DNA of 64,000 nt from Ectopseudomonas chengduensis (lineage in GTDB: Bacteria; Pseudomonadota; Gammaproteobacteria; Pseudomonadales; Pseudomonadaceae): the NCBI RefSeq assembly GCF_015712065.1, contig NZ_JACFYZ010000004.1, positions 1 to 64,000 of the forward strand, read 5' to 3'. This document shows, piece after piece, positions 4,409 to 49,722 of this stretch; positions within the stretch are counted from its first letter, which is position 1, and the number at the start of each line of letters is the position of its first letter. The translations under genes and the position numbers were made by a program. Below the pieces are notes generated by a model. The model was not told the DNA's origin and did not search any database. It saw nothing but the letters and a program-made list of their open reading frames with translations.

Positions 4409-4692
4409 TGGTGTAGCTCCGTGTGTGTTGTCGGAGCTGCCACGGATCGTCGCCAAACGATTATGGGTGGCAGCTGTGCGCGGGTTGGCGAACCGGGACA
4501 CACGGAACCCGGCAGACCCGAGGGTCTCCCACGCACAGCCGCCATAACACGGCACTGCAGGCGCAAAAAAAGCGCCGGCAATGAAATGGTGGGCGCTTGT
4601 GCGCCGTGTGGTCTTCGGGTCGCCAAACCCGGTCGCGGGATTTACCGCGACGGGCCGACCATAACGCCGTGCCGGCTGAAGCGCAAGAGCAA
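4409..4692 (-). promoter_or_regulatory. P4-like structured leader/immunity-type region
   Basis: This is 284 bases between the DNA-binding-like gene and the 87-aa gene. It is dense in short inverted repeats: AGCTCCG/CGGAGCT (4415-4421, 4432-4438), GCGCAAAAAAAGCGC (4562-4576), and repeated phrases with CGCCAAAC near 4450 and 4619 and CCATAAC near 4540 and 4657. Two minus-strand frames are open through it. Similar leaders between AlpA/HTH genes and replication genes are common in P4-like elements, where phage P4 uses a processed CI RNA and transcription termination for immunity. Assigning that role here is inference from position and repeat structure. Confidence 0.45.
4415..4438 (-). promoter_or_regulatory. 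hairpin covering the ribosome binding site of the 87-aa gene
   Basis: A 7-bp perfect stem (AGCTCCG at 4415-4421, CGGAGCT at 4432-4438) has a 10-nt loop. On the minus-strand transcript the 3' arm holds GGAG, the ribosome binding site of the gene starting at 4408. Folding would hide the site. Pairing is seen in the sequence; regulation is inferred. Confidence 0.5.
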
Positions 4693-6068: not shown

Positions 6069-6171
6069 ATTTACGCCCTCCCAGGCGCTCCCACTGTCGG
6101 AATAGGTCGGCCAGCCAGGCGGGTGGGAAGTCCGCTTTTCACCCCGTCGGGTTAGGCTGGCCGAGTAACCG

Positions 6172-7570: not shown

Positions 7571-7610
7571 TGGTGCCCCGGGGGAGACTCGAACTCCCAC
7601 TCCTTTCGAA
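7571..7610 (-). other. probable attachment site (tRNA 3' end)
   Basis: P4-type integrases recombine at tRNA 3' ends. The element's genes begin beyond the CCA end of tRNA-Leu with int closest. The matching direct repeat at the far end of the element would lie left of base 1 and is not visible, so the exact core cannot be fixed. Confidence 0.5.
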
Positions 7611-7655
7611 AACGGATTTTGAATCCGCCGCGTCTACCGATTCCGCCACCGGGGC
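7571..7655 (-). tRNA. tRNA-Leu (anticodon CAA)
   Basis: An 85-nt class II tRNA. The acceptor arms GCCCCGG (5') and CCGGGGC (3') are followed by encoded CCA at 7573-7571. The D-arm contains GGTAGACGC, and the anticodon loop TTCAAAA gives anticodon CAA. A long variable arm follows, then the T-arm with GTTCGAGTC. It reads toward the integrated element, whose integrase lies beyond its 3' end, so the 3' half probably serves as the attachment site. In P. aeruginosa a tRNA-Leu also lies next to queA. Confidence 0.97.
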
Positions 7656-11218: not shown

Positions 11219-11254
11219 TTCGGTTCTTAGTTTCCATTCGACGGGGCGCTTTAG

Positions 11255-11406
11255 GGCACTTCTAAAAACGTAGGCGAGGCAGCCAGCGCAAGGCAAAAAC
11301 AGGCGAAAAACGGCCGGGGTCGCGACCGACTTTACGAGCGATTTTCGAGCATTTTGAGCCTGTTTTTAACGCAGCGATGGCAACGCAGGTAGTTTTTAGA
11401 GGTGCA
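11255..11406. repeat. non-coding inverted-repeat element, copy 1 (yajC-secD)
   Basis: About 152 bp with no ORF. The ends are inverted repeats: GCACTTCTAAAAAC at 11256-11269 and GTTTTTAGAGGTGC at 11392-11405 (one mismatch). Inside are the boxes GCAAGGC (11288-11294) and AACGCAGC (11368-11375), and a perfect 10-bp inner stem AAAAACAGGC/GCCTGTTTTT (11295-11304, 11358-11367). CTTTAG flanks both sides (11249-11254, 11407-11412) and looks like a target duplication. Removing the element restores the palindrome GGGGCGCTTTAGCGCCCC. Copies 2 and 3 share the architecture. Confidence 0.8.
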
Positions 11407-11443
11407 CTTTAGCGCCCCGCGTCATAAAGCGGGCGGCTCGTTC

Positions 11444-41099: not shown

Positions 41100-41241
41100 A
41101 GAGCCCGCTCAAAGTCTCGCGAGCTAGAGTCATGCAAGGCAAAAACAGGCGAGGAAGCGCAGTTTACGAGCTGTAAATGAGCATTCCGAGCCTGTTTTTA
41201 ACGCAGCAGGGCCGACGCGCAGCAGACTTTGAACAGGCTCT
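41100..41241. repeat. non-coding inverted-repeat element, copy 2
   Basis: 142 bp without an ORF. The 18-bp ends, AGAGCCCGCTCAAAGTCT and the inverse of AGAGCCTGTTCAAAGTCT, differ at two positions. Internal boxes are GCAAGGC (41134-41140), AAATGAGCAT (41175-41184) and AACGCAGC (41200-41207), with a perfect inner stem AAAAACAGGC/GCCTGTTTTT (41141-41150, 41190-41199). The flanks GGCCGGC (41089-41095) and GCCGGCC (41246-41252) are themselves an inverted repeat, so the element sits in a hairpin loop. Confidence 0.8.
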
Positions 41242-48034: not shown

Positions 48035-49567
<1,533 letters not shown>

Positions 49568-49568
<1 letters not shown>

Positions 49569-49708
49569 AAAATCGATTTGACGCTGCTGCGCTTGAGCAT
49601 GCTGCGTTGGAGAAAAACTCGAGATGCTCATTTGCTTCAGCAAACTCCCCTCTCTCGTTTCTCTCCGCCTTGCCTGCTCGTCGCTCGCGATGCGGCAAAT
49701 CGATTTTT
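49568..49708. repeat. non-coding inverted-repeat element, copy 3 (guaB-guaA)
   Basis: 141 bp in reverse orientation to copies 1 and 2. It begins at the last base of the guaB stop codon. The ends AAAAATCGATTTG (49568-49580) and CAAATCGATTTTT (49696-49708) are perfect inverses. On the minus strand it has GCAAGGC (49667-49673), AAATGAGCAT (49624-49633) and AACGCAGC (49601-49608). The inner stem GGAGAAAAAC/GTTTCTCTCC (49609-49618, 49657-49666) replaces the AAAAACAGGC stem of the other copies, so pairing is kept while sequence changes. Confidence 0.72.
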
Positions 49709-49722
49709 ACAATGTATGAATA

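Follow-up and report, generated by a model that had tools for sequence, protein, structure and literature searches.

A MITE-like superfamily of Pseudomonadota that probably joins a conserved folded core to interchangeable insertion sequence ends

Three non-coding elements in the 64,000-nucleotide stretch of Ectopseudomonas chengduensis DNA analysed here (the window) are members of a real and numerous family. Probably, this is a MITE-like, non-autonomous superfamily in which a conserved folded core carries interchangeable insertion sequence (IS) ends and is moved by the transposases of the matching IS. MITEs are usually viewed as relics bound to one parent IS. Here, many Pseudomonadota keep a core under structural selection, and its ends shift between IS5-type, IS1182-type and other forms, which suggests that the element parasitises several transposases.

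Results

Three copies in the window and their relatives in the genome

The original prediction had described three elements that share internal boxes in the same order and spacing. All three sit where it had placed them, with copy 1 corrected to 11254-11407 between TTTA repeats, and the boxes GCAAGGC...AACGCAGC at the proper spacing occur three times in the window, whereas shuffled sequences give an expectation of 0.03. The features are as follows.

11243-11249 and 11412-11418: host hairpin arms around copy 1 (GGGGCGC-TTTA-GCGCCCC)
11250..11253, no strand: left target-site duplication TTTA of copy 1, in the loop of the host hairpin GGGGCGC..GCGCCCC
11254..11407, + strand: copy 1, type-5 ends GGGCACTTCTAAAAAC / GTTTTTAGAGGTGCAC, in the interval yajC / secD
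11288..11375, + strand: conserved folded core of copy 1
11408..11411, no strand: right target-site duplication TTTA of copy 1
41101..41240, + strand: copy 2, type-1 ends GAGCCCGCTCAAAGTCT / AGACTTTGAACAGGCTC
41134..41207, + strand: conserved folded core of copy 2
49568..49707, - strand: copy 3, AAAATCGATTTG-type ends, in the interval guaA / guaB
49601..49673, - strand: conserved folded core of copy 3, whose inner stem differs from that of the other two copies

The core of copy 1 is made larger by one extra hairpin, and its empty site, GGGGCGCTTTTAGCGCCCC, is present in the relatives G008 and G012 (with one extra T). Copy 2 is flanked by GAA and TAA, an imperfect 3-bp duplication at best. Copy 3 adjoins the guaB stop codon and is flanked by TA at 49708-49709 and 49566-49567 (by eye); it is absent from G001, G008, G012 and G013. 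In the yajC-secD interval of G001, a piece of an oppositely oriented copy (L137) lies where the window has copy 1, apparently through an independent insertion.

Further copies were abundant. A blastn search with copy 2 gave 41 matches in its own genome (5.49 Mb in 61 contigs), and a covariance model of the core gave 89 matches at E<=0.01, the weakest being partial, and 82 at E<=0.001. Dozens of copies thus add to those in the window, about 80 in all. Across the superfamily the element is approximately 120-250 bp long and, like a MITE, it carries no transposase gene and stays below 500 bp. The lack of an ORF was judged at a threshold of 90 aa: no ORF of that length lies within a copy, and long mechanical ORFs run into the edges of copies. 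The two halves of the core were at most 130 bases apart among the loci compared, which include no autonomous, gene-bearing version, and the model matches in the own genome span at most 171. An Rfam covariance-model search of the window gave no match at the gathering threshold of any family at a copy; for six loci searched at E up to 1, the sub-threshold matches covered no core.

The core is a hairpin with conserved loops and compensating stems

At the centre of the core is an apical stem of 6 bp, which is followed outwards by the conserved internal loop GCGGAG/TGAGCA and a stem of 4 bp. Next come, frequently, a GA/GA loop and then a 10-bp stem whose sequence varies, the conserved loop AAGGC/AACGC and another variable stem with a mismatch, beyond which lie the outer arms. 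Extra hairpin modules recur at fixed points of the core (L212, L218, L242, L243, L247, L251 and L275-L280). As predicted, the inner stem is the same in copies 1 and 2 and differs in copy 3; the version in copies 1 and 2 is, however, also common in the family at large.

For the covariation analysis 42 copies were anchored by script, and 34 were kept in the alignment (L003, L005, L012, L014, L018, L026, win1 and the mis-anchored, insert-bearing L036 were left out). Standard pairs made up 95.3% of the core structure in this alignment, both sides had changed in 22 of the 29 core pairs, and the covariation score was 0.398 versus 0.158 in shuffles, with 0 of 500 shuffles as high. Shifting the partner by 1-3 columns lowered the pairing to 33-44%. 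An alignment of 109 matches from other organisms, which was fitted to the model and in which the search pattern fixed some columns, gave 93.9% standard pairs and a score of 0.403 versus 0.155, and here, too, the number of pairs with changes on either side was 22 of 29. The internal-loop boxes are constant while the stem columns covary, and many of the distant copies shown retain the inner loops, whole or in part, while stems and arms differ. Covariation was thus strong in both sets and, together with the fixed loops, it supports the earlier claim that a conserved core with compensating stems reflects selection on a folded form.

Such selection could act on RNA. According to this alternative, the core would be a structured RNA that is mobile, transcribed from the + strand and active in its folded form, for example in trans or by softening the effect of the insertion on a neighbouring mRNA. 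It is compatible with the transposon reading, and we give it a substantial chance, albeit below even. Conserved internal loops with replaceable stems and extra hairpins at fixed points would be expected of an RNA. In the core, G-U also exceeds A-C on the + strand, with 26:3 cells in one alignment and 75:21 in a second, while the excess in the arms is smaller (106:63). This suggests that the + strand is the one that folds. The cell counts, however, come from related copies, and when counted by pair and type the excess shrinks to roughly 14:3 (binomial p 0.013) and 23:12 (p 0.09). Moreover, G-U makes up few of the cells (75 of 3009), and G-T is the more stable mismatch in DNA too. The directions of the flanking genes, determined with a simple purpose-made gene caller, showed no bias (++ 42, -- 47, +- 23 and -+ 21, against a background of 161, 178, 91 and 85). 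Neither a sigma-70-like site near the three window copies nor a matching Rfam family was found. Replication-strand bias was inconsistent among G029 (22:12), G012 (20:17) and G014 (5:10), as judged by eye and with the origin assumed at the contig start.

Alternatively, the pairing might be a by-product of mutation, in which template switching within the hairpin matches the arms to each other and no selection acts on the fold. The many double changes with few wobble intermediates agree with this, as do changes of whole blocks on both strands, such as those in the inner stem of copy 3 and in L030 of G000 compared with G001. Template switching alone should also erase the internal loops, yet the loop letters persist in distant genomes in which the stems have been replaced. 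We therefore regard this explanation as improbable and selection on the folded form as the better account. The changes in L030 between G000 and G001 are compensating changes of the inner stem.

The outer arms resemble the terminal inverted repeats of transposons

The prediction that the two arms pair within each copy, yet differ between copies, was borne out: arms matched their own partner with a mean score of 13.0 versus 6.6 between copies, the own score being higher in 148 of 162 comparisons. The arms are not unique to single copies, however. They fall into types that recur. A type could be assigned at either end in 82 of the 168 copies, and the two ends agreed in every one of these. To judge from their sequences, the outer arms are terminal inverted repeats (TIRs) of a transposon. 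The element thus possesses the TIRs of a MITE, but its ends are not conserved between the copies of the family, as those of a classical MITE would be; fixed terminal repeats were not found, and the ends vary between copies. This variation had been taken to speak against a MITE. That argument no longer holds, because the arms resemble the TIRs of different IS and go with the same kind of target. The TIRs of types 2, 3 and 5 have inner letters in common (GAAAAAC or nearly so), and GTAG adjoins the arms in these three types but is absent beside the arms of types 1 and 7.

Insertion sites and target repeats differ by arm type

We placed the flanks of 16 sites of the own genome in five relatives by means of a joined query, and 13 sites were aligned. 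At 11 of these 13, the element was absent from at least one relative. The relatives differ also in the sequence surrounding the element at L007, L031 and L032, the L030 site is filled in G012 and G001, and at L010 the relatives have unalignable sequence.

The flanks track the type of the arms, being either a constant TA, 3-bp TNA repeats, 4-bp repeats, 4-5-bp repeats that often lie in hairpin loops, or 8-bp repeats. The chance level was taken from the flanks of different copies, and the counts also include copies that lack an exact repeat. Exact flanking repeats of 4-5 bp were present in 5 of 11 type-3 copies (chance about 1%), of 4 bp in 3 of 7 type-5 copies (chance 2.4%) and of 3 bp in 12 of 27 type-1 copies (chance 19%). 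TA stands at both flanks in 21 of 30 type-2 copies, where a 2-bp repeat occurs in 23 of 30 (chance 56%), and in 17 of 20 type-4 copies, where the chance of a 2-bp repeat is 80%. As the flank of types 2 and 4 is an almost constant TA, the target is evident for them but a duplication is not separable from it. The same is true for G106, with a 2-bp TA match in all 8 copies that have both ends (10 loci), and for G114, with 6 of 8. TNA repeats of 3 bp were found in 4 of 4 G074 copies, and 8-bp repeats in 4 of the 17 copies with both ends in G153 (21 loci); L383 adds one further 8-bp repeat (by eye). An exact repeat of the expected length is missing in 13 of the 17 G153 copies and in more than half of types 1, 3 and 5. 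Target-site duplications, another MITE hallmark, thus exist for types 1, 3, 5, G074 and G153, with many older copies lacking them.

Hairpins of the host flank 5 of 11 type-3 copies (1.0% in the null), copy 1 in the window, and all six IS1182-type elements, which might suggest that the arms themselves are host hairpins into which the core inserted; this is very unlikely, since a given TIR type turns up at sites that have nothing to do with one another, few copies of the other types lie between hairpin arms (2 of 27 for type 1, 0 of 30 for type 2, 0 of 20 for type 4 and, counting copy 1, 1 of 7 for type 5), and the relatives without the element are also without the TIRs, which rules out host hairpins as their source.

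Full-length insertion sequences share the ends of three types

We scanned the loci around Pfam DDE_Tnp_IS66 and DDE_Tnp_1 hits in seven genomes, one of which had no hit. Pairs of TIRs were sought at 42 transposase loci, some of them overlapping (some G012 hits were given no locus), and an IS was counted when TIRs of the element, each with no more than 2 mismatches in 16, bounded a stretch of IS size. This was the case at 10 of the 42 loci. Type-2 TIRs bound 1333 bp at three G012 loci, with TA at both flanks in 3 of 3. Type-3 TIRs bound 1596-1608 bp at five G012 loci and one G000 locus, with target-site duplications of 4-5 bp in 5 of 6, and type-5 TIRs bound 1279 bp at one G000 locus with the duplication TGAA. 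The transposases between the TIRs of types 2, 3 and 5 belong to the IS5, IS1182 and IS5 families, respectively (NCBIfam, each above its cut-off). For three arm types, therefore, a full-length IS in the own genome or a relative combines TIRs like those of the element with the same kind of target. The IS1182-family elements in G012 and G000 (L402, L403, L406, L409, L412 and L415) all lie in loops of terminator-like hairpins (6 of 6).

Each matching IS has only about 16-17 bp in common with the element at each end, which argues that the elements are not simple deletions of these IS. Two copies with type-6 ends, L180 (Halomonas) and L267 (own genome), are within 3 mismatches of the published TIR of ISPsy19 and have TGA on both sides; ISPsy19 is described, in the part of the source consulted, as an IS5-family member with 3-nt duplications (PMC3189936). 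TIRs in common with an autonomous IS are thus established for types 2, 3 and 5, with type 6 being near ISPsy19.

For type 4, the only IS ends found were similar ones (L398). No IS with type-1, type-7 or copy-3 ends was present among the transposase loci scanned, the commonest type-1 ends formed no IS-sized pair in G000, G008 and G012, and a pattern search of the own genome with type-2 ends gave none either. The 8-bp type of G153 may be IS66, to judge by the length of the duplication; a search of G153 for an IS66 transposase with the ends of this type gave only a 104-aa fragment, itself matched by a copy, and weak pairs of a short 12-letter G153 word in L383 and L400 were not counted as IS. A search of the repeat loci with nine TIR words yielded five pairs at distances of 600-3500 bp. 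These were rejected as IS because their ORFs contained no transposase (by eye) and because, in 3 of the 5, each end belonged to a separate copy.

With no ORF inside the element and with TIRs that match full-length IS for three types, the earlier view that mobility needs help from elsewhere is strengthened. It seems, on sequence grounds, that more than one transposase is able to move the element.

The ends change on near-constant cores

Among copies with cores of equal length (70-77 nt), 54 pairs of different TIR type differ at no more than 3 core positions, some at 1. For example, L022 (type 2, flanked by TA) and L170 (type 5, flanked by a TTAA repeat) differ in one core nucleotide and in their ends. 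Types 2 and 5 have the block just inside the TIR in common, so that the difference is confined to roughly the outermost dozen bases of each end. Considering the likeness of the inner letters in types 2, 3 and 5, some of the type switches may have been stepwise mutation. Parsimony on a core tree of 74 columns gave 31 type changes; this tree is poorly resolved, and its well-supported branches force only 1-2 changes per type.

Spread of the superfamily

An even draw of Pseudomonadota, the own genome included, comprised 397 genomes from 231 genera, and no more than 9 candidates were scored for each genome. Matches at E<=1e-6 occurred in 69 of these genomes and 40 of the genera. Among near genomes, 31 of 38 (again with the own) had a match at E<=0.001, with 0 to 82 copies each. 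The matches listed from a pattern scan include Pseudomonas, Stutzerimonas, Halopseudomonas, Halomonas, Hahella, Motiliproteus, Oceanobacter, Chromatiales, Nitrosomonadales and Gallionella, as well as single MAGs titled Tidjanibacter and Thermodesulfobacteriota (by record title alone). Fourteen plasmid records matched, with none annotated beneath the match. Phage records gave no match to the element and five viral contigs did; near-identical copies occur in three IMG/VR contigs (L260-L262). Phages or prophages may thus carry the element.

The distant 2.0 Mb genome G153 has 147 matches (L340-L359 among the loci), and some of its copies lie inside a longer composite that has a second GTAACTACTCAG end. 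Mostly one to few weak matches (E about 1e-7 to 1e-11) were seen in G042, G054, G073, G077, G145 and others of the distant family f60, and these may represent ancient copies or a sequence related to the core.

Discussion

On the reading that we favour, each element would consist of a core, folded into a single long hairpin, between TIRs that resemble those of one IS out of several. It would be moved in trans by the transposase of that IS, and the same transposase would thereby set the target. The two ends would change together, one being altered first and then copied to the other by template switching in the hairpin. The most speculative step is that selection preserves the core for a fold that draws the ends of the element close to each other in DNA and so could aid whichever transposase is present. 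We lean toward such a DNA-level role in joining the ends, since any transposase could profit from it and selection for it would act in cis, and we consider an RNA role nearly as likely. Taken to its full extent, the idea is that of a selfish structured module independent of any one transposase, whose core pairs the ends, copies a new terminal repeat across and so changes IS family. We put this forward tentatively, as something that could well prove wrong. If true, such a module would outlive each IS and spread through the phylum.

Several known systems are close. IS-derived MITEs, as characterised in the part of the source that we used, are shorter than 500 bp, have TIRs, direct repeats around the younger copies, no ORF and a stable stem-loop (PMC10969869). 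The element agrees with this description in its size, its TIRs like those of autonomous IS, its repeats, its lack of an ORF and its stem-loop, but one conserved core is here joined to the TIRs of several IS. MITEPsy1 of P. syringae moves in vivo, has IS5-like (ISPsy2) ends with a 4-nt CTAG/YTAA duplication and is known from six copies with identical ends; it is 100 nt long and MITEPsy2 228 nt, according to the portion consulted (PMC3189936). These too are Pseudomonas MITEs, but with other TIRs, and we tentatively set them apart by their description. The copies found here are longer than the 100 nt of MITEPsy1 and do not have its ends (..TCTGAAAAAGCC), and none of three pairs of TCTGAAAAAGCC-type ends in the loci examined bounds a hairpin-core copy. 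The repeats R0, R2 and R178 of P. fluorescens are intergenic like the element and form separate families, R178 being 101 bp long with internal 11-bp inverted repeats, as far as the consulted text goes (PMC2718517). Compared by description alone, R178 may or may not be related. TIMEs are Tn3-derived miniature, non-autonomous inverted-repeat elements with mosaic forms in Pseudomonas, according to excerpts of two papers (PMC4133298, PMC13367494). They share with the element the non-autonomous inverted repeats, and we separate them by description, as their name implies a Tn3 origin.

Structural constraint on mobile palindromic non-coding DNA is also a feature of REPINs, which have GTAG-footed REP sequences and a RAYT transposase as partner. 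The element differs from them in having TIRs, target duplications and DDE-type IS as partners.

We recognised no paper in open-licence PubMed Central that describes the core or such swapping of ends, and the papers containing words of the element, among the matches listed, had only 11-letter words and seemed unrelated. In the parts consulted of the two close Pseudomonas studies, each repeat family is given its own ends. Repeat finders that expect fixed ends could miss such elements. The family offers a direct test of whether an internal fold aids transposition or copies one end to the other, and provides, on a large scale, a natural experiment in how DNA or RNA hairpins undergo compensating change.

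Two minor observations were made alongside. The own genome also contains a short palindromic element of approximately 66-92 bp with type-2-like ends and an unrelated core (L265, L267 and L270), and in L268 and L031 its sequence is apparently joined to the left arm of a hairpin-core element. Finally, a C4 antisense RNA with a1/b1 targets, an int-alpA RNA and a tRNA lie in the window at 4463-4664, 6092-6162 and 7574-7655, which are signs of a P4-like satellite prophage.
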